Position numbers and translations under genes: made by a program. This document shows positions 5,741 to 17,134 of a stretch of DNA of 64,000 bases, one piece after another (the first letter of the stretch is position 1; each line of letters opens with the position of its first letter). This DNA is from Phycisphaerales bacterium. Lineage in GTDB: Bacteria; Planctomycetota; Phycisphaerae; Phycisphaerales; UBA5793. The DNA lies in NCBI GenBank assembly GCA_020852515.1, contig JADZAS010000013.1, forward strand, positions 1 through 64,000, written 5' to 3'. The notes beneath the pieces are model-generated. The model ran no database searches and was not told the DNA's origin. It saw only the letters and a list, made by a program, of their open reading frames with translations.

Positions 5741-5780
5741 CCCCTTTCGTTTGCAGCGGCCTCAACGGGCAGGAGTGGTG

Positions 5781-6398
5781 ATGGACGCATCTGAACGCAT
5801 CGCGCAATTTCGCAACATGGCTGAGGCCGATCCGACCAATGAGATGGCCCACTTCAGCCTCGGCAACGCCTTGCTCCAGGCGGGGCAGGCGAAAGAGGCC
5901 GCCCAGTCGTTTCAGCGGTGCATCGAACTCCAGCCGGAGATGAGCAAGGCCTATCAACTCGCGGGCCAGGCGCTCGTCGCGGCCGGCGACTCCTCCGCCG
6001 CGGCCGGCATCCTCACCAGCGGCTACAAGGTCGCGGCCCGGCGCGGCGATCTCATGCCCCGCAACGCCATCGCCGAGTTGCTCCGCAAGATCGGCGCGCC
6101 CGTCCCCGTGGTCAAGGATGCCCCGCCCGAGCCCGAAATCCCGCAAGGAGCCTTCATCTGCCAGCGCACCGGCCGGCCAGGCACACAGATGGACAAGCCC
6201 CCCTTCCGCGGCCCGCTGGGCCAGCACATCTACGAGACCATCTCAAAGGAGACCTGGCAGCAGTGGGTCGGCCAGGGCACCAAGGTCATCAATGAACTGC
6301 GCCTCGATCTCTCGCGCGATGAGCACGCCAAGGTCTACGACCAGCACATGATCGAGTTCCTCGGCCTCGAGGAGTTCGTCGCCTCGCAGCGCCAGTAG
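5781..6398 (+). CDS. TPR protein with C-terminal Fe(II)-trafficking (YggX) domain
   Basis: A 205-residue cytosolic fusion. Residues about 15-100 form two to three TPR helices pairs (AHFSLGNALLQAGQAKEAAQ, KAYQLAGQAL). Residues about 127-198 match YggX, the small protein linked to iron supply and oxidative protection of Fe-S enzymes: FICQRTGRPG with the family's single conserved Cys, LGQHIYETISKETWQQW, then INE and the AKVYDQHMIEFL end. YggX is normally a stand-alone protein of about 90 residues, so the N-terminal TPR fusion is unusual. ATG 5781 follows AGGAG. The next gene starts 130 bases downstream. Confidence 0.85.
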   Translation: MDASERIAQFRNMAEADPTNEMAHFSLGNALLQAGQAKEAAQSFQRCIELQPEMSKAYQLAGQALVAAGDSSAAAGILTSGYKVAARRGDLMPRNAIAELLRKIGAPVPVVKDAPPEPEIPQGAFICQRTGRPGTQMDKPPFRGPLGQHIYETISKETWQQWVGQGTKVINELRLDLSRDEHAKVYDQHMIEFLGLEEFVASQRQ

Positions 6399-6528: not shown

Positions 6529-7998
6529 ATGAGGCTGCGATGGGTGGTGATGGGTCTGGCCGGCGCGGCGGTTGCAACCGGCCCGCAATCCACGGCCTGG
6601 GCCCAGGACACAGAGACGTTCGAGCGCCTCGAGCGCACGCTGCGCGACATCGAGATGTCGCGCCAGGCCGGCGCTGCGGACCTCGAGATCGCCGAGTCGG
6701 GCCGGCTGCTGCTGGGCGGCTACACCACCTTTGGATTCATCGCCAGCGACGACGCGAGCAGCAACACGCGGATCCTCCGCCAGAGCGACACCAAACTCTG
6801 GGCCGACTTCTCCATGGCCGGGCACCAGGCTTACGGCCGGCTGCGTTTCAACTACCTCGACTTCAACTCCGGCGACAGTTTCGACGGGCGCGGCGACAAC
6901 CTCGAAGAGCCCATCGCCGACCGCTACTGGTACCGCTTCGACTACCGCACCGCGCGCATGGCCGACGCCGGCGAGCGGCCCGATGACAACTTCTGGTTCC
7001 AGGGCGGGCGGCAGTTCGTAAATTGGGGCTCGGGCCTGGCGCTGAGCGAAGTGCTCTACTCGGCGCAGGCGGGGCTCGAACTTCACAACCTCGAAGTCAT
7101 GGGCCTGATCGGCCTCACGCCCTCCACCGGACCGATCGACTTTGACAGTTCGCGCCCGGGCTACGACACCGACGTCGATCGCAAGTTCATGGGCGTGATG
7201 TTCACCTACACCGGCCTGGACCGCCACCGGCCCTATCTCTTCTTCCTCGATCAGCAGGATCGCAACGAACGCGACAGCCGAACGATCCTGCTGCTGGGCA
7301 CGCCCTTTCCGACGCGGTACCACTACGACTCGCGCTATCTCGGCGTGGGCAGCAGCGGCGAGATCACTTCTGAACTGTTCTACCAGGCGGAGTTCGTGTA
7401 CGAATTCGGCCAGTCGCTCAGCAGCAGCATTTCGCCCTTCGCCGCGCCGGTGGCGCAGACGGAAGAGTCAATCCGCGCGTGGGCGGGCGATGCGCGGCTC
7501 ATCTACGCGCCGCGCTGGGGCCGGCCCAACGGGGTGCGGCTCGACTGGGAAATCGTCGCGGCCTCCGGCGATGACGATCGCCAGCACACCTCCAACACCT
7601 TCGGCGGCAACCTGAGCGGCACCGACGATCGCGCCTTCAATTCGCTGGGCTACGCCAACACCGGACTCGTCCTCGGGCCCAACGTCTCCAACCTCCTGTC
7701 GATGCGCATGGGCGCCAGCGCCACGCCGTGGCGCGGCCAGGGTGTCTTCGACAAGATGCGCATCGGCGTGGACGGTTACCTGCTGCACAAACTCGACTCC
7801 GCAGCGCCCGTCAGTTTCACCACGACCGCCGGCGAGCGGTTTCTCGGCGCTGAACTCGACTTCTTCGTGGACTGGCAGATCTACAGCGACCTGTCGCTCG
7901 ATCTGCGCTACGGCCTGTTCATTCCCGGCGACGCCATGCCCGCCGGCAGCGACGACGAGCGCCACTTCTTCTACGCGGGGTTGAACTATGCGTTCTGA
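6529..7998 (+). CDS. Outer-membrane beta-barrel protein
   Basis: A 489-residue exported protein. It has a signal peptide (residues 1-24, ending TAWAQ) and a body of alternating amphipathic strands rich in Tyr, Trp and Phe, such as GRLRFNYLDFNSG, RYWYRFDYR and FVYEFGQS. It ends in FFYAGLNYAF, with the terminal aromatic residue typical of BAM-inserted barrels. The closest family I can suggest is the alginate-export or porin-like barrels, but I cannot name a substrate. ATG 6529 has GGAGG seven bases upstream. The stop overlaps the next gene by 11 bases, so the two are probably translationally coupled in one operon. Confidence 0.78.
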   Translation: MRLRWVVMGLAGAAVATGPQSTAWAQDTETFERLERTLRDIEMSRQAGAADLEIAESGRLLLGGYTTFGFIASDDASSNTRILRQSDTKLWADFSMAGHQAYGRLRFNYLDFNSGDSFDGRGDNLEEPIADRYWYRFDYRTARMADAGERPDDNFWFQGGRQFVNWGSGLALSEVLYSAQAGLELHNLEVMGLIGLTPSTGPIDFDSSRPGYDTDVDRKFMGVMFTYTGLDRHRPYLFFLDQQDRNERDSRTILLLGTPFPTRYHYDSRYLGVGSSGEITSELFYQAEFVYEFGQSLSSSISPFAAPVAQTEESIRAWAGDARLIYAPRWGRPNGVRLDWEIVAASGDDDRQHTSNTFGGNLSGTDDRAFNSLGYANTGLVLGPNVSNLLSMRMGASATPWRGQGVFDKMRIGVDGYLLHKLDSAAPVSFTTTAGERFLGAELDFFVDWQIYSDLSLDLRYGLFIPGDAMPAGSDDERHFFYAGLNYAF

Positions 7999-8584
7999 TC
8001 TGGCCAAAGCGCTGAGCGCGGCTGCGCTGGCATGCACGCTGCTGATCGGCGGCTGCACGCGCACGCTGCTTGAGGCCTCGGTCGCCGATGCGCACAGCGG
8101 GACGGATGCCACGGCCGAACTCGACTTCTGGGATGGCCTGGCGATGCAGCATGCCGCGAGCAATCGCGACGCCCTGCACGCGCTGCTGCTCACGTTCCAT
8201 CTTCTGCCCGATGCCGCCGCGGAATCCGAGGATGAGGAGGGCGAGGCAGGCGACGCCGCCTCGCCCGCCGGATTCGAGGCCGAACTTCAGATCGCGCGCC
8301 AGCGGGGCTGGATCGCCGAAGATGAAGAGCCGATGCCCAATGAAACGGCCCAGGCCGGCTGGATCGCGCGGGCCATCTGCATCGAGGCCGGCATCGAAGG
8401 CGGGGTGAACATGCGGCTGTTTGGTCCGATACCCCGCTACGCCCTGCGCGAACTCGAGTGGGAAGGCCTCATGGACCGCAAATCGGAGAACCAGGCGCTC
8501 TCGGGAATCGAACTGATGGCGACGATCGGCCGCGTGCAGGACCGGCGCACGGGCCTCGTTTCCGTGCCGCGACAGGACTTCTGA
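7988..8584 (+). CDS. Hypothetical lipoprotein
   Basis: A 198-residue predicted lipoprotein. The N-terminus is a short positive stretch, a hydrophobic ALACTLLIGG and the lipobox Cys at residue 23 (LIGGC). The rest is acidic and mostly helical (EDEEGEAGDAA, then AELQIARQRGWIAEDEEP). I do not recognise a family. It starts inside the end of the barrel gene and is followed after 11 bases by the LysM-FecR gene, so it probably belongs to the same envelope complex or pathway. Confidence 0.72.
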   Translation: MRSDLAKALSAAALACTLLIGGCTRTLLEASVADAHSGTDATAELDFWDGLAMQHAASNRDALHALLLTFHLLPDAAAESEDEEGEAGDAASPAGFEAELQIARQRGWIAEDEEPMPNETAQAGWIARAICIEAGIEGGVNMRLFGPIPRYALRELEWEGLMDRKSENQALSGIELMATIGRVQDRRTGLVSVPRQDF

Positions 8585-8595
8585 CCGGCGGATCG

Positions 8596-9684
8596 ATGAA
8601 ACGGATCATGATGATGCGCACCCAACTTCGACTCGCTCTGCTGTGCCTGCTCGTGTTCGCCATAGCCGCCGGTCGCGCCGGCGCGCAGGAGCAGCCACCT
8701 GCGGCGCCCGAAGCGCCCGAGTCGGCTGAGCAACCGCAGGTGCTCGACGATCAGCCGATCGCCTACACCATTCGCGAAGGCGACACATTTGAATCGATCG
8801 CGGAGAAGTGGTACGGCAACCGCGAATTCGCTTCCGCAATCGCCGAGGCCAATCCGGATGTCGACGCGCAGAACCTCGTCGTCGGCGCCGTGATCACTCT
8901 GCCGCGCATCGATCTTGGCGACCAGTTGGCCAGGATCGAGCCGCTGCCCGAGGGGGAAGTGAAGATCCTCCAGGCCGTCGTGATGAAGGTGGAGGGCACA
9001 GCCCAGTGGCGGCCGGATGTGCAGTCGCCGTGGAAGAACGCGGCGATCAATGACGTGATCGCCACGGGCAGTGAGATCCGCACCGGCTCCGATTCAACCC
9101 TCACCCTGCGCATCGGCATGAACGCCTCCATGCTCATCGACCGCATCTCGCGCATCACGCTGCCCGAGATGATCCAGGCCGGCGACACCCTGCGCACGCG
9201 AGTGACGATGCAGTACGGTCTGGCGGATGTCAAGGTCGATCACGTCGGCCTCTCCAACGACTTCGAAATCAAGACGCCCAGCGCTACGCTGGCCGTCAAA
9301 GGCACCGGCTGGCGCATCGTGTGGGACGGCATCGACGGCTTCCGTGCCTTCGGCGTGCCGACGAATCGCATCCGCGCCATCGAGATCGAGTACATCAACT
9401 CGATCAAGGTCGCGTTGACTGCCGACGACGCCTCGAGCGGGCAGCACCAACTCCCCTCGCTCAACGCATTCGCGCACACCTACTTCCTGCCCCTCGCGGG
9501 CGCCGTGTCGCCCGAGGAAGTGCCGTTCCTCACCATGGTCGTCTCGCACGGGCAGCATCTCATCCGCGATCTCGGTCTCGATGAGTCGTTCGGCCGCGAG
9601 GGCTTCGAAGGAACCCTGCAGGAATTCACCGAGCAAGGCCGCGGCGGCGGCTCCGGCTGCGGCTGCCAATTCGAAGGCAACTGA
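8596..9684 (+). CDS. Exported LysM and FecR domain protein
   Basis: A 362-residue exported protein. Residues 1-31 are a signal peptide ending GRAGAQ. A LysM peptidoglycan-binding domain occupies about residues 55-103 (YTIREGDTFESIAEKWYGN, then ANPDVD and VVGAVITLP). A FecR-type domain follows at about 120-250 (VMKVEGTAQWRPD, then IATGSEIRTGSDSTLTLRIG and KTPSATLAVKGTG). It ends in a Gly/Cys-rich GSGCGCQFEGN. FecR domains commonly sit next to CHASE2 cyclases or sigma regulators and are thought to sense the periplasm; here a CHASE2 cyclase is the next gene (30 bases). ATG 8596 is chosen from the signal peptide. Confidence 0.83.
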   Translation: MKRIMMMRTQLRLALLCLLVFAIAAGRAGAQEQPPAAPEAPESAEQPQVLDDQPIAYTIREGDTFESIAEKWYGNREFASAIAEANPDVDAQNLVVGAVITLPRIDLGDQLARIEPLPEGEVKILQAVVMKVEGTAQWRPDVQSPWKNAAINDVIATGSEIRTGSDSTLTLRIGMNASMLIDRISRITLPEMIQAGDTLRTRVTMQYGLADVKVDHVGLSNDFEIKTPSATLAVKGTGWRIVWDGIDGFRAFGVPTNRIRAIEIEYINSIKVALTADDASSGQHQLPSLNAFAHTYFLPLAGAVSPEEVPFLTMVVSHGQHLIRDLGLDESFGREGFEGTLQEFTEQGRGGGSGCGCQFEGN

Positions 9685-9714
9685 CGGGCGCTGCCTCGAC
9701 CGTCGGAGGATCGC

Positions 9715-12552
9715 TTGGCGTTCATGGCTCGACTGCTCGGTTCCGGCTCCGGACGCGGCTCGCTCATGCCGTGGCTGGTCGGCTCGCTGCTCGCCGCCGT
9801 CACGGCCTACATGCTCACCGTTCCCATGTGGAGCGACCGGGCAGAGGGCCTGGCGAGCGACTTCCTCTTCCGCTTCGGCCGCCTCAACCCGCCGCGCGCC
9901 AGCGACCGCATCGTCCACGTGGATATCGACGACAGTTCGCTCGAGTCCTTCGGCCGCTGGCCCTGGAAGCGCTCGCTCATCGGTAAAGCGATCACGACGA
10001 TCGACTCGTACGGCCCGAGCGTCATCGCCCTCGATCTCCTCTTCGACGAGCGCACGCTCGACGAGCCCGAGCAGGATCGCGCCCTGGTCAACGCCATCCG
10101 CGAGGCCAGGGCACAGACGATTGTCGCGATCAAATTCCCCTCGGTTGGCGAGCAGATCGGGCCGCTGTGGCGCGGTCCGGAAGGCGCTGCAGCGCTGCGA
10201 GGCGTCATCGACGGCCTCAAGCAAAACATCTACATCGACCCGCCTTCGCTCATGGAGCGGGCCGGCCTCGACGAAATCCGCGCGCAGCGCGTCAACGACC
10301 GCTTCCAGTCCTTTCGCGAACTCGCCGTGGAGGAAGCGGCGCTCGAACTCACCGGCAGAGGGCCGCTGACGGTGGAAGCCGTGCTCGATCACATGGCTCC
10401 GCGCGACGCGCCGGGCGTGCGCGACCGCGGCCTCGAGCGCCTGATTCGCAAAGTCGTGGACCGCATTAACGTCACGCGCACCATCGCGCCGCAGATGCCC
10501 GAACTGGGAATCTCCGGCGTGGTGCGCCTTGCCGAGGCGATCGAAGTGCCCGTCATGGAGATCGCCACCGCCGCGACTCACCCGGGCTTCGTCACGACTG
10601 AGACCGATCGCGACGGGGCGGTGCGCCGCGTGCCGCCGGTCATCGGCTTCGGCGGCCGGCTGTATCCCCAACTCGGCGTGGCCGCGGCGATGGCGCACCA
10701 GCGCCTCACCGCCGAAGACATTCGCGTCGATGAATCGTCCATTCGCATCGGGCAGTCGGTTTTGCCAGTCAACGAGGGCCGCTCGCTCATCGCCTGGCCG
10801 CGCACCGAAGACGGCTCGCCGCCGCTCAACCTGCTATCGGGGCACATGGCGCACGCCTCGCAGAACGCGGCGCTGGGCCTGCTGCGCCAGGCCGAGACCG
10901 ACCCACCGACGTTCGGCCACGTCGCCATAGGCGTGCTCATTGACCTCGACGAGAAACTCACCGCCATCAGGGCCAAGCGCGAAGAATACGAGTCCATCGC
11001 GCGCGAACTGGCCGACGCCTTTCTCGGCGTCGATCGCTTCGCTCCCGAAGACTGGACGCAAAGCGAGAAGCGAGCCGCCATCGACGCCGAACTGCTCGAC
11101 CAGGTGCTGTTCGTGCTCGGTTCCACGCCCGAGGGCCGGCCCCGGCCGCCCGGACCCAGCGCCACGTCGGAGGAGATCGCCCTCTGGCGCTGGTACCAGA
11201 TGCACGACAACATCGATCGCGAACAGCGCGAGCTGTTCTCCGCCCGCGATCGACTCACCCAAATGCTGCGCGGCAAGATTGTTTTCGTCGGCTGGGTGAC
11301 CACCGGCTCGCTCAGCGACGTCTACCCGACCGCAGCCGGCCCGCTCACGCCCGGCGTCGTCGTCAACGCGATGATGGCCAACATGGTCCTCACGGGCGAG
11401 GCGTTCTCCGAGGCGCCGCTCTGGGTCGGCGCGCTGCTCACCTTCGCGCTCGGCTCGTTCGCCGCGTTCGTCGCGGGCATGCGCTCCATCCGGCCGCTGC
11501 TGGGCCTGCTGCTGGCGGCGGTGATCGCGCTGGGCTATCTCGTGGTCAACGCGTTTCTCTTCTTTGACGCGAGCCATCAGTTTGTGCCCCTGGCCACGCC
11601 GATGACGGGCATTGCCGTAGGCCTGTTCGGCTCCACGTTCTCGCGCGGGCTGAACGAGCGGCGCGAGCGGTCGCGCCTCACGCGGCAGTTCGGCAACCGC
11701 ATCCACCGCCGCCTCTTTCAATACCTGCTCGAACATCCCGACGTCATCGACATGAGCGGTTCGCAGCGCGAAGTGACGTGCCTCTTTGGCGATCTGGCCG
11801 GCTTCACCAGTGTCTCGGAAACCATGGACTCGCGCTCCACCGTCGCGATCCTCAACAAGTACATGGGCAGCATGAACGCCCTGCTCACGGACCACGAGGC
11901 GTACGTGAACAAGTTCCTCGGCGACGGCCTCATGGCCTTCTGGGGCGCCTTCGAGGAAGACGCGTCGCACGCCGACCGCGCTGTGCGCGCTGCCATCGCC
12001 TGCGTGCAGCGCGTCGAAGAGCTGAACCTCGACGCCATGCGCAGCGGCGAGCCGCGCCTCACCATGCGCTTCGGCCTCTCGTCAGGGCTCGTCACCGTCG
12101 GCGACTGCGGCGCGCCGCCCGAGTTCAGCGACTTCACCGTCATCGGCGACTCCGTCAACCTCGCCGCCCGCCTCGAGTCGGCCAACAAGCAGTTCGGCAC
12201 GTCCATTCTCATCAACGGCCGCACCAACGAGATGATCGGCCCGGACATCCTCCGCCGGCCCATCGGGCTCGTCACCGTGGTCGGCCAGTCCAAGCCCGTC
12301 GAACTCTTCGAAGTCCTCCCCGTCGAACCCGGCACCGACGACGAGGAACTCATCTCGCTCATCGAAGCGACCGCGCAGGCCGTGCGGCTCTACCGTGACC
12401 GCCGGCTCGACGAGGCCAGGTCTGCATGGGAGCAGCTCGTCGCCGAGCACGGCCAGTCGCGACTGTGCGCGCTCTATCTGCGGGAGATTGCCCGGTTTAC
12501 GGCTAACGCGGAAGAACTCTTCGACGGCGTGATTCATCTCGAAAGCAAGTGA
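9715..12552 (+). CDS. CHASE2-domain class III adenylate cyclase
   Basis: A 945-residue membrane sensor that probably makes cAMP. After one N-terminal membrane helix (about 20-35), a periplasmic CHASE2 domain spans about 45-560 (RIVHVDIDDSSLESFGRWPW is its typical start). Three membrane helices follow at about 570-640, then a class III nucleotide cyclase domain at about 684-860. The catalytic features are intact: both metal Asp residues (TCLFGDLAGFTS and FLGDGLMAF), the adenine-site Lys before FLGD and Asp in SDFTVIGDSVN, and the transition-state Asn and Arg in VNLAARLES. The C-terminus is helical. GGAGGA lies four bases before TTG 9715; ATG 9724 is the alternative start. Confidence 0.92.
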   Translation: MAFMARLLGSGSGRGSLMPWLVGSLLAAVTAYMLTVPMWSDRAEGLASDFLFRFGRLNPPRASDRIVHVDIDDSSLESFGRWPWKRSLIGKAITTIDSYGPSVIALDLLFDERTLDEPEQDRALVNAIREARAQTIVAIKFPSVGEQIGPLWRGPEGAAALRGVIDGLKQNIYIDPPSLMERAGLDEIRAQRVNDRFQSFRELAVEEAALELTGRGPLTVEAVLDHMAPRDAPGVRDRGLERLIRKVVDRINVTRTIAPQMPELGISGVVRLAEAIEVPVMEIATAATHPGFVTTETDRDGAVRRVPPVIGFGGRLYPQLGVAAAMAHQRLTAEDIRVDESSIRIGQSVLPVNEGRSLIAWPRTEDGSPPLNLLSGHMAHASQNAALGLLRQAETDPPTFGHVAIGVLIDLDEKLTAIRAKREEYESIARELADAFLGVDRFAPEDWTQSEKRAAIDAELLDQVLFVLGSTPEGRPRPPGPSATSEEIALWRWYQMHDNIDREQRELFSARDRLTQMLRGKIVFVGWVTTGSLSDVYPTAAGPLTPGVVVNAMMANMVLTGEAFSEAPLWVGALLTFALGSFAAFVAGMRSIRPLLGLLLAAVIALGYLVVNAFLFFDASHQFVPLATPMTGIAVGLFGSTFSRGLNERRERSRLTRQFGNRIHRRLFQYLLEHPDVIDMSGSQREVTCLFGDLAGFTSVSETMDSRSTVAILNKYMGSMNALLTDHEAYVNKFLGDGLMAFWGAFEEDASHADRAVRAAIACVQRVEELNLDAMRSGEPRLTMRFGLSSGLVTVGDCGAPPEFSDFTVIGDSVNLAARLESANKQFGTSILINGRTNEMIGPDILRRPIGLVTVVGQSKPVELFEVLPVEPGTDDEELISLIEATAQAVRLYRDRRLDEARSAWEQLVAEHGQSRLCALYLREIARFTANAEELFDGVIHLESK

Positions 12553-12579
12553 TGGCCGATCTGGCATCGGGAGGTCCGC

Positions 12580-13278
12580 ATGAACCCGATAGCCAGAGGC
12601 TCGATTGCTGAATTCGTCGGAGCGTTCGCACTGACCTTCGTCGGCGCGGGCGCGATCATCGTCAACCAGATCATCTCCGGCGGCGGGCTGCTGCCCATCG
12701 CCATCGCGCACGGCCTGACCCTGGCCGTCATGGTCTCCGCCACCATGCACATCTCGGGCGGCCAGATCAACCCTGCCGTCTCCATCGCCCTGGCGGTCAT
12801 CGGCAAACAGGATCCCAGGCGGGCCGCAGCCTTCGTCGCCAGCCAGGTGCTCGGCGCCGTCATCGCGGCACTTCTGCTCAAAGCCGTGTTCACTCCGACA
12901 CACGCCGACGCAGTCAATGCGGCCCGGCTCGGCGCCACGCTCGGCGGGCTGGGGATGAGTTCGGGCGCCATTCTCGTGCTCGAGATCGTCGCCACGTTCT
13001 TTCTCATGTTTGTCGTCATCGGCACGGCCGTGGACAGCCGCGGTGTGGGCAAGGGAGCGATGATCGGCGGATTCGGGATCGGCCTGACCATCGCCGCCGA
13101 CATCCTCGCCTTCGGCCCCGCGACCGGCGCCTCAATGAACCCCGCGCGCAGTTTCGGCCCGGCGCTCATCGGCGGCTACTGGGACATCCACTGGGTCTAC
13201 TGGCTCGGCCCCATCATTGGCGCCACCCTCGCCGCCCTCGTCTGGCAGTTCGGCATCGGACTCAAAGACGGGAAGTAA
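12580..13278 (+). CDS. Aquaporin / MIP family channel
   Basis: A 232-residue inner-membrane channel with six helices and both pore NPA motifs (GGQINPAVS near residue 65 and ASMNPARSFGP near residue 190). Length and motif spacing are typical of MIP water or small-solute channels. I cannot separate water from glycerol specificity by eye, although the compact loops favour an aquaporin. GGGAGG precedes ATG 12580. The gap from the cyclase gene is only 27 bases, so it may be the last gene of the same operon, which would suit osmotic sensing. Confidence 0.9.
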   Translation: MNPIARGSIAEFVGAFALTFVGAGAIIVNQIISGGGLLPIAIAHGLTLAVMVSATMHISGGQINPAVSIALAVIGKQDPRRAAAFVASQVLGAVIAALLLKAVFTPTHADAVNAARLGATLGGLGMSSGAILVLEIVATFFLMFVVIGTAVDSRGVGKGAMIGGFGIGLTIAADILAFGPATGASMNPARSFGPALIGGYWDIHWVYWLGPIIGATLAALVWQFGIGLKDGK

Positions 13279-13421: not shown

Positions 13422-14294
13422 TCAACCGGCCCCGGCGCCCGAGTCGCCCACGCGGCGCATCATGAGCCGGCGGGCGATCAAGCCGTACTTGGGCGAGCCC
13501 ACCATGGCGGCAACGAAGATCAGCGACTGCACCAGTACGATGCACGCGCCCGTCTCTCCATTGAGAAAGTAGCTTACATATGTTCCCGCGACTGAACTCG
13601 CCACCGCGCTGCCGCCGGCGATGAGCAGCATCCGGTCGAAACGATCGCTGAGCAGGTGCGCGATGCAGCCGGGCGTAACGAGCATGGCCACGGTGAGGAT
13701 GATGCCCACCGCCTGCAGCGCCGCCACCACCGTGCCGCTCAGCAGCGCCAGCAGAAGATAGTGAACGAACGTCGTATTCAGCCCGACCGCCCGCGCCTGG
13801 TTGGGGTCGAAGAGATACAGCACGAGGTCGCGCCGCTTGACCACGACGATGGCGAACGTCAGTCCCGCCGAAACGATGGCCTGGATGAGATCGTGGCGCT
13901 CAATGCCCAGCAGGCTGCCGAAGAGAATGTGGTTGAGATGCACGTCGGTGTGGATCTTGGTGAAGAGCACGATGCCCAGCGCAAACAGGCCGGTGAACAC
14001 CACGCCCATGATGGTGTCTTCCTTGATACGGCTGTGGTTCTTGATCCAGCCCGTCGAAGCAGCGCAGACCATCCCCGCGGCAAACGCGCCCAGCCCCAGC
14101 GGCAGCCCGACGATGTACGCCAGCACCACGCCCGGCAGCACCGCGTGCGACACCGCGTCGCCCATGAGCGACCACCCCTTGAGCACGAGATAACACGACA
14201 GCACGGCGCACGCGGCGCCGATCAGCGCCGCCACGAGCATGGCCTGAACCATGAAGCCGTACTGAAAAGGTTCGAGCAGGTGGCTGAGGTTCAT
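13422..14294 (-). CDS. Metal ABC transporter permease (second copy)
   Basis: A 290-residue inner-membrane permease of the ABC-3 family (ZnuB/MntB/TroC type). It has about eight hydrophobic helices and the family signatures [24 protein letters not shown] and AMLVTPGCIAHLL. It is a clear paralogue of the upstream permease, whose stop overlaps its start as ATGA. It is probably the second half of a heterodimeric pore for Mn(II) or Zn(II), as in the mntABCD and troABCD types. The C-terminus is short and polar (MRRVGDSGAGAG). It is the last gene of the operon. Confidence 0.92.
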   Translation of the reverse strand: MNLSHLLEPFQYGFMVQAMLVAALIGAACAVLSCYLVLKGWSLMGDAVSHAVLPGVVLAYIVGLPLGLGAFAAGMVCAASTGWIKNHSRIKEDTIMGVVFTGLFALGIVLFTKIHTDVHLNHILFGSLLGIERHDLIQAIVSAGLTFAIVVVKRRDLVLYLFDPNQARAVGLNTTFVHYLLLALLSGTVVAALQAVGIILTVAMLVTPGCIAHLLSDRFDRMLLIAGGSAVASSVAGTYVSYFLNGETGACIVLVQSLIFVAAMVGSPKYGLIARRLMMRRVGDSGAGAG

Positions 14295-15196
14295 AGCGCA
14301 TCGGCTCCTGCGGACAGTTCGCCGCCCGGCTGGCTCGCCAGAGTGGATTGCGCCGAAGCGCGGGCCTTCCATCGCCCCGCCAGCACGCCGTGGACCGGGG
14401 CAAAGACCAGCGCCGCCAGAAACAGCACCGTCTGCAGCACGACGATGCACCCACCCGTCGAGCCGTCGAGAAAGTAACTCGCATAGGCGCCGAGCATCGA
14501 CGTCGTCACGCCCATCGCCGCGGCCAGGCCCATCATTCGCCCGAACCGATCCGTCAGCAGGTAGGCCGTCGCGCCTGGCGTCACGAGCATCGCCACGACC
14601 AGGCACGCCCCCACCGCCTGCAGCGCCGCCACCGCCGTGGCGGCAAGCAGCGTAAGCAGCATCACGTGCAGCAGGCCCGTGTTCAACCCGACCGCCTTGG
14701 CCTGCGCCGGGTCGAACACGAACAGCAGCAGGTCCTTCCATTTGACCGCCAGCACCACAAGCGTGGCCGCGGAGATCGCCAGCGACTGGATGATGTCGCG
14801 GTTGGCGATGCCGAGAATGTTGCCCAGGACAATCGTCTTCAGGCTGATGTTGCTGGGATACAGCGAGATGAGCAGCACCCCCGCCGCGAAATACGTCGTG
14901 AACACAATGCCGATGACCGCATCCTCGCGGATGCGCGTGCGCGACTTGATAAACCCCATCGTCCCCGCCGCGAGCAGGCCGCTGACAAACGCGCCGGCTG
15001 CGAACGGCAGGCCCGCGAGATACGCCAACACCACGCCGGGCACGATCGCGTGCGACAGCGCATCGCCCATGAGCGACCAGCCCTTGAGCGTGACGTAGCA
15101 CGACAGCAGCGCGCACACGCCGCCGATGAATCCGCTGACCAGGATCGCCTTGACCATGTACTCGTAGTGCAGCGGCGTAAGCAGCGTCTCGATCAT
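14291..15196 (-). CDS. Metal ABC transporter permease (first copy)
   Basis: A 301-residue ABC-3 family permease. Shared motifs with its neighbour include [21 protein letters not shown] and [19 protein letters not shown]. It overlaps the ATPase gene stop (ATGA at its 5' end) and the second permease gene (ATGA at its 3' end), so the three are translationally coupled. The two permeases have diverged clearly, consistent with heterodimer formation rather than a recent duplication. Confidence 0.93.
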
Positions 15197-16125
15197 GGCC
15201 GCTGCTCCGCCGGTTCAGCCGCGTCAGTCGCCTCGGCGCCATCGGCGGCTTGCGACATCATCTGCCGCGCCGGTCGACCGCTTTCGTCAAAGACCAGCGC
15301 CGCTTCATCATCGGTCAGCACGCGCAGTTCATTGGCCAGCACGCCGGGCACATCGGTGTGATCGAAGCGAAGGTTGCGCAGCGCCCCGCCGAAAGCGAGC
15401 GCGAGGTTCTGCTCCGTGAACGTCGTCTCCATCGGTCCCGCAGCCAGCACCGTGCGGTTGATGATCACGACCCGGTCGCAGAACTCGGGGACCGAGCCGA
15501 GGTCATGCGTCGAGACGAAGACGATGTGCCCCTGGGCCCGCAGTTCGCGAAGCAGATCGACGATCGCGGCCTCCGTGCGGACATCGACGCCCGTAAACGG
15601 CTCGTCAAGCAGCACGATGCGCCCCTGCTGCGCCAGGGCCCGCGCGAGAAAGACTCGCTTCTTCTGGCCGCCCGAGAGTTCGCCGATCTGCCGGTGACGG
15701 AACTCCGCCATGCCGACGCGCTCGAGGCTCGCCATGGCGATCTCGCGATCCGCCCGCCGCGCGATGCGCATCATGTTCATGTGGCCGTAGCGGCCCATGA
15801 GCACGACGTCCCACACGCTCACCGGAAAGGCCCAGTCCACTTCCTCGGATTGCGGCACGTACGCGACGAGGTTGCGCCGATGCGCTTCGCGCACGCTCAG
15901 GGGGCCAATGCTCACGCTGCCGCGCACCGGCCGCACGAAACCCATGATGGCCTTGAAGAGCGTGGACTTGCCGCTGCCGTTGACGCCCACCAGCCCGCAG
16001 ATCGTGCCCGGCGAAAGGGAGAACGTCGCATCGCGCAGCGCCACGTGCCCGTTGTTGTACGCCACGGTCACGTCACGCACGCTCAGGTCGACCTGGATAT
16101 CGCGATCAGCGCTGTTCAGTGCCAT
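15193..16125 (-). CDS. Metal ABC transporter ATP-binding protein
   Basis: A 310-residue ABC ATPase that powers the adjacent permeases. Visible motifs are Walker A (GVNGSGKST), the Q-loop ([12 protein letters not shown], typical of the ZnuC/MntB group), signature LSGGQKKR, Walker B (RIVLLDEPF) and the switch His (VSTHD). It carries a C-terminal extension of about 55 residues beyond the usual 250, ending AAEPAEQRP, of unknown role. ATG 16125 lies 10 bases after the stop of the binding-protein gene. Longer in-frame readings run into that gene and are rejected. Confidence 0.94.
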
Positions 16126-16135
16126 GGCGGCTCGA

Positions 16136-17107
16136 TCACTTGCCAAAGCCGGCGACGATCGTCTCGGCGTTGTAGGTGAGCATTTTGAGATACGTCGGCG
16201 CGACGCCGTCCTCACCCGTGAGTGAGTCCACGAAGAGCACGCCGCCGTACGCAGCGCCGGTTTCGCGGCAGACCTGCCGCATCGGCTTGTCGCTGATCGT
16301 ACTCTCCGAAAATGCGACGGGGATCCGGTATTCGCGGATGGTGTCCACGACCTTCTGAATCTGCTGAGGGGTGCCCTCTTCATCCGCGTTGACCGGCCAG
16401 AGGCACAGCTCGCGCATGCCGTAGTCGCGGATGAGATACGAAAATGCCCCTTCCGACGTCACCAGCCAGCGCTGCTCGGCGGGAATGCTCGACAGCCGGT
16501 CGCGCAGGGGCCCGTCGATGGCACGGATCTGCTCGCTGTACGCCGCCGCGTTGGCCGTATACGTCGCTTCGTTGGCCGGATCGATTTCAATCAGCGCCTT
16601 GCGGATGTTCTCGACGTAGACAAGCGCGTTGCGCGGCGACATCCAGGAGTGCGGATTCGGCTTGCCGTTGTACGGCCCCTCGCCAATGCTGATCGGCTCG
16701 ATGCCCTCGCTCAGATCGACGCTGGGCACATCGCGCACGCTGCCCATGAACTTCTCGAACCATCGCTCCAGCCCCAGCCCGTTGCGAAGCACGAGATCGG
16801 CCGACTGCGCCTTGACGATGTCCAGGGGCGTCGGCTGGTACTCGTGGATCTCGGCGCCGGGCTTGGTGATCGACTCGACGATCGCCTTGTCGCCGGCCAC
16901 GTTCTGGGCCATGTCCTGCAGGATGGTGAACGTCGTCACCACGCGCGGCACATCCGGCCCGCCTGGGCCCGCAGGCGCCTCGCCGCCGCATCCCGCCAGA
17001 AGAAGAAGCCCCGCCGCAGCCGCAGCCGCAACCGCCAGCCCGAGCACCGCACCCGATCGCCGTTCGCCGGATACACGCCTGAACCGCTTCCTGAGCCCCA
17101 GCTCCAT
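16136..17107 (-). CDS. Metal ABC transporter substrate-binding lipoprotein (cluster A-I)
   Basis: A 323-residue periplasmic lipoprotein that captures Mn(II) or Zn(II). It has a lipobox Cys (LLLLAGC), then [18 protein letters not shown], the metal ligand motif NPHSWMSP and further TroA/PsaA/MntA-type segments ([21 protein letters not shown]). There is no His-rich loop of the ZnuA type, which together with the MntR-like neighbour favours manganese. GGAGGT lies just before ATG 17107. It is the first gene of the operon and is preceded by a strong promoter and operator. Confidence 0.92.
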
Positions 17108-17134
17108 GTGACCTCCGTCCTGTTGCCCTGGCAA

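Follow-up and report, generated by a model that had tools for sequence, protein, structure and literature searches.

Few systems are known that carry a signal from the outer membrane across the envelope to the cytoplasm. In Sinorhizobium meliloti, signal-dependent cAMP signalling is reported to depend on NsrA (PMC7529298, PMC13001267), which works with CyaK as a pair of receptor and cyclase (PMC7529298). On the S. meliloti plasmid pSymB (L182) the gene for a 1219-aa FecR-TPR-barrel protein overlaps a CHASE2-cyclase gene; we identified this protein as NsrA by its neighbour and its layout (barrel at 600-1200, PMC7529298), not by a locus tag. A Campylobacterota cluster likewise contains a CHASE2-cyclase together with a FecR-domain outer-membrane protein (PMC9239204). 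The stimulus sensed by CHASE2 domains has been described as unknown (PMC5192318).

The window analysed here is a 64,000-nucleotide stretch of a contig from a Phycisphaerales bacterium. An initial annotation had described five co-directional genes in it, and our analysis confirmed their positions, with gaps of -11, 11, 30 and 27 bases (Table 1). Its description of a unit that extends across outer membrane, periplasm and inner membrane and ends in an apparently active cyclase also agrees with the predicted gene products. It knew a CHASE2-cyclase next to FecR, but not with a barrel, a lipoprotein and a water channel; for a barrel with a CHASE2-cyclase there is a precedent in S. meliloti, where NsrA directly precedes CyaK.

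Table 1. Positions of the five genes of the locus (numbered from the first base of the window) and of the cNMP-binding redox genes of the same genome
Feature	Position	Strand	Description
Outer-membrane beta-barrel	6529..7998	+	489 aa; Pfam Alginate_exp partial, E 5e-13
Lipoprotein	7988..8584	+	198 aa; lipobox Cys23; without Pfam match
Secreted LysM + FecR protein	8596..9684	+	362 aa; Pfam
CHASE2 class III cyclase	9715..12552	+	945 aa; Pfam CHASE2 + Guanylate_cyc
Aquaporin, MIP family	12580..13278	+	232 aa; Pfam MIP
cNMP-binding redox proteins	L179:4324-6483 and L179:7346-9049	- and +	G000 contig 25

The conserved unit of this locus consists of the barrel, the lipoprotein, the FecR protein and the CHASE2-cyclase, and excludes the aquaporin. 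Searches in 61 relatives detected the lipoprotein, the barrel and strong cyclase matches in 23, 24 and 23 genomes, respectively, and these were the same genomes. Lipoprotein and barrel occurred together in 23 of the 61, and no genome had the lipoprotein without the barrel (Fisher p 6e-16); lipoprotein and cyclase co-occurred likewise (Fisher p 2e-14). The odd cases (G033, G037, G041) lie at contig ends or on short contigs. These values place the linkage of the first four genes far beyond chance. In most of about 24 loci of the order, the neighbourhoods run barrel, lipoprotein, FecR protein and CHASE2-cyclase. GTDB was scanned with the alignment of the barrel, as that of the lipoprotein has no conserved stretch, and yielded 80 loci, nearly all planctomycete by their record titles plus two from Omnitrophota; the few named for other groups are probably mislabelled MAGs. 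About 38 of the 80, mostly Planctomycetota, display the four genes in this order on one strand and within a short distance, a count that includes some loci where the contig end cuts off the cyclase; in four further loci FecR comes last. In 74 of the 80 loci the gene after the barrel is the lipoprotein, which holds for every planctomycete locus on a contig that extends beyond the barrel; the six exceptions are four barrels at a contig end and the two Omnitrophota. The overlap of the barrel and lipoprotein genes is exactly 11 bases in about 20 loci, a pattern that includes the window, and its recurrence suggests translational coupling of the two. Lipoprotein and FecR protein are fused into one chain in three genomes (L116, L131, L154). 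In a sample of 392 genomes from across the phylum, the lipoprotein was detected in 44.

Some genomes carry two or three separate cassettes; strain ZRK34, a culturable carrier, has two. The duplicates of G013 and G025 pair (L085 with L089, L086 with L090) for barrel, lipoprotein and cyclase alike, so the cassettes are inherited as sets; the matching pairing also suggests that these are separate sets with separate signals, and it speaks against a single housekeeping tether. The third copy in G013 (L091:10509-13949, minus strand) comprises barrel, lipoprotein and FecR protein with no adjoining cyclase, in addition to two complete cassettes in that genome. The initial annotation had named loss of gene order in relatives, or an inactive cyclase, as grounds for abandoning its proposal; the order is kept for the first four genes and not for the aquaporin, and for these four genes the catalytic residues of the cyclase are in place as well.

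The barrel protein displays a signal peptide, about 18 strands and a C-terminal F, and its helix 24-50 is predicted to be periplasmic with low to moderate confidence. Its match to PF13372 (Alginate_exp) is over the cut-off and covers only the C-terminal part. Structures of the barrel and the lipoprotein were predicted from 72-sequence alignments. A Foldseek search with the barrel model (pLDDT 88, pTM 0.85) revealed AlgE as best match (E 2e-20) and also detected the SLH porin OmpM1 and Occ porins; as modelled, the barrel is AlgE-like. The alignment showed a 43-residue loop (346-388) among its most conserved parts. PDB sequence searches with the barrel and lipoprotein profiles revealed no convincing relative with a solved structure.

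In the lipoprotein alignment (72 sequences) Cys23 is 98% conserved. The 15 best PDB fold matches of its model (pLDDT 89, pTM 0.81) are all S-layer homology (SLH) domains, with prob 0.95-1.00, E 0.006-0.12 and moderate TM values of about 0.42-0.50. The predicted fold is therefore SLH-like, of the wall-binding kind; SLH membership by sequence lacks a profile match, as the Pfam profile PF00395 detected nothing at E 0.01 in 61 genomes (that of the window and 60 relatives). Profile comparison showed only a weak internal SLH repeat, so that the assignment comes from the fold alone. OmpM tethers have been described as absent from Gracilicutes (PMC10628300), and the predicted SLH-like lipoprotein is an addition in a group where they are reported missing.

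Pfam searches of 31 FecR proteins from relatives found the FecR domain in 27 and LysM in five. The conserved core is the FecR domain, and LysM, rejected as a core feature on this count, is local. Sensing of the wall state, as initially proposed, is only partly supported: it loses LysM as a general element but gains the lipoprotein, whose fold is predicted to be SLH-like. The C-terminal parts of the FecR proteins vary greatly, with alanine-rich, probably coiled-coil sequence of up to 1748 aa. At L077:1807-5475, L079:8615-13861 and L082:7720-12936 the FecR proteins measure 1222-1748 aa, and their long alanine-rich, probably coiled-coil extensions look suited to crossing a wide periplasm.

Translation of the cyclase starts at TTG 9715 or ATG 9724. 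Hydropathy analysis indicated one N-terminal TM, a periplasmic CHASE2 domain with an inserted stretch and a TM cluster at 569-616, followed by a cytoplasmic catalytic domain at about 684-850. The class III residues are present: two metal aspartates, the KxxGD lysine, a threonine at the second base-selecting position, N and R. The pattern D..KxxGD..T..NxxxR is kept in the window and in the relatives with a full catalytic domain, in line with the intact catalytic site noted initially. We take the K and T to fit a class IIIb adenylate cyclase.

Genomes that have barrel, lipoprotein and FecR genes minus an adjoining CHASE2 gene encode CHASE2 proteins elsewhere, and in all ten such genomes scanned a cyclase domain was found on these unlinked CHASE2 proteins. 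In two loci a CHASE2-SpoIIE protein takes the place of the cyclase near the input module, a few kilobases away and in L121 on the other strand. In the two Omnitrophota a CHASE2-GGDEF gene lies beside a distant barrel and divergent from it. CHASE2 is common to the cyclase, SpoIIE and GGDEF pairings, which makes it the constant receiving point, with an exchangeable output. Loci L068 and L069 of the same order represent a different CHASE2 system: barrel and lipoprotein are missing, and the CHASE2-cyclases, about 700 aa long, lie near proteins of 1617-1741 aa.

The four genes are kept together across many planctomycetes and their products extend from the outer to the inner membrane; they probably serve to pass a signal from the surface to the interior. 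We consider it likely that they form a four-part trans-envelope signalling cassette in which information from the outer membrane or the wall reaches CHASE2 and is turned into cAMP. The AlgE-like barrel and the SLH-like lipoprotein beneath it would constitute the receptor. Its state would be relayed in the periplasm by the FecR-domain protein, to which this genus adds a peptidoglycan-binding LysM domain, and the CHASE2 domain of the inner-membrane class III adenylate cyclase would receive the relay and alter the cAMP output. Support for a signalling cassette comes from the genes and their domains, the kept order, the co-occurrence, the lipoprotein-FecR fusion and the intact residues, from the CHASE2-cyclases encoded elsewhere in genomes without an adjoining one, the exchangeable outputs and the inheritance as sets; the pairings in S. 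meliloti and Campylobacterota are a precedent. We infer the protein contacts, the direction of signal flow and cAMP as the product, and the folds are computed predictions. The stimulus could be a ligand of the barrel or the attachment of the outer membrane to the wall. The recurrent four-gene set is widespread in Planctomycetota, present twice or three times in some genomes, and the fusions and exchanged outputs found in nature offer a way to test the order of contacts.

Alternatively, barrel and lipoprotein could, like AlgE, transport a polymer or, like OmpM, anchor the outer membrane to the wall; they would then form a transport or tethering complex under cAMP control, and FecR and cyclase would merely regulate it or be co-regulated with it. 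The nearness of the barrel fold to AlgE, its match to OmpM1 and the SLH-like lipoprotein are consistent with such a complex, and the highly conserved loop of the barrel suggests a working pore or gate. However, the neighbourhoods, read by ORF position rather than by a full domain scan, contain no further recurring gene. The fusion of the lipoprotein to FecR in three genomes also argues against this explanation, as do the two or three cassettes per genome, which would be odd for a housekeeping tether, and the known role of NsrA-CyaK as receptor and cyclase (PMC7529298). We therefore regard it as unlikely.

The genome of the window encodes four Guanylate_cyc proteins. A search for a cAMP receptor gene, which the initial annotation had suggested, revealed no CRP-type regulator in this genome (97% complete). 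The cNMP_binding domain was detected in only two of its proteins, an NDH-2-like flavoprotein and a ferredoxin-type protein encoded close together on contig 25 (Table 1); matches in the same arrangement recur within the genus. The two genes adjoin ORFs with CxxCH haem motifs, and the ferredoxin has several cNMP stretches. Some relatives have CRP-size ORFs with a cNMP-binding domain. Proteins with cNMP-binding domains are commoner in relatives with the cassette (18 of 23) than in those without it (12 of 38; p 4e-4), and five of the 23 cassette-bearing relatives have no cNMP_binding match. These five and the missing CRP-type regulator count against the proposed cassette with cAMP as its output, as do the moderate TM values and the missing Pfam match for the SLH assignment.

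A more speculative reading, to which we give rather little credence, is that the cassette is a dedicated sensor of outer-membrane-to-wall attachment in Planctomycetota. Lipoprotein and barrel would form a split tether, FecR and CHASE2 would sense how it is loaded, the outputs (cAMP, SpoIIE phosphatase and possibly c-di-GMP) would be interchangeable, and in this genus cAMP would act on the cNMP redox proteins instead of CRP.

The aquaporin adjoins the cyclase in the genome of the window and in G004 (93% identical), two closely related species. In G003 an ORF intervenes and the distance is 2 kb, G002 has it on a separate contig, and none was found in G001; outside the genus no locus showed one next to the cassette. 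With adjacency in two of the five species of the genus and none in the other three, we rejected it as a core part and regard it as a local extra, and the initial view of the water channel as a member of the unit, with a change of water flow as its effect, is not supported. Control of water flow through the adjoining aquaporin by a sensor of osmotic or wall state is highly improbable and largely refuted by gene content: the co-directional arrangement with the aquaporin 27 bases downstream, shared with G004, was not found in G001, G002 and G003 or outside the genus. The other flanks were as follows. Just upstream of the cassette, 5772-6398 (plus strand) encodes a protein that joins TPR repeats to a YggX-like Fe(2+) trafficking domain (PF04362), and an ORF of about this size precedes the cassette in several species of the genus. 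Convergent with the aquaporin, 13422-17134 (minus strand) encodes an ABC-3 type (Zn/Mn-like) permease, an ATPase and a probable solute-binding protein; other congeneric species likewise have minus-strand genes of similar sizes after the cassette. As improbable as the water-flow reading is FecI/FecR-like sigma-factor regulation with an incidental cyclase, for which the FecR domain might speak, since the cassette genes include neither a sigma factor (FecI) nor a TonB receptor (FecA) and a CHASE2-cyclase accompanies the FecR module even when unlinked.

Comparison of the cassette with known systems revealed partial likenesses to several of them. The AlgE alginate exporter of Pseudomonas aeruginosa is the best structural match of the barrel; the identity is about 16% over the structural alignment, however, and the cassette barrel is tied to FecR-CHASE2 signalling genes. 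In the OmpM SLH porin of diderm Firmicutes an SLH-fold wall-binding module is coupled to an outer-membrane barrel, but OmpM is one chain that acts as tether and uptake channel with no cyclase, whereas barrel and SLH-like part of the cassette are two proteins (PMC10628300). The Burkholderia BiofilmReg operon resembles the cassette in its LysM-FecR protein adjoining a CHASE2 sensor; it signals through a histidine kinase and a response regulator, its fourth gene is DUF4136 and it lacks a barrel (PMC5192318). The Campylobacterota cluster differs in its TPR protein and phosphodiesterase, and no lipoprotein is described for it (PMC9239204). On a Shinella plasmid (L176:3108-9278 and following) genes for a TPR protein, a FecR protein and a CHASE2-cyclase immediately precede those for NHLP-type peptide export and for a cNMP-binding protein.

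NsrA-CyaK (CyaD1/D2) has in common with the cassette that an outer-membrane barrel, FecR and an inner-membrane CHASE2 adenylate cyclase are encoded by adjoining genes. A tblastn search with the window barrel gave no match in a plasmid collection that included S. meliloti pSymB, and no sequence similarity to the NsrA barrel was detected. FecR, TPR and barrel are one chain in NsrA, whereas the cassette has separate genes and no TPR. The S. meliloti system acts through the CRP-type effector Clr, in contrast to the genome of the window, in which no regulator of this type was found. Among the papers available to our search, none was found to describe a split variant or to join Phycisphaerae and CHASE2. 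The cassette is a split variant of the NsrA-CyaK type, to which the SLH-like lipoprotein has been added as a new component.
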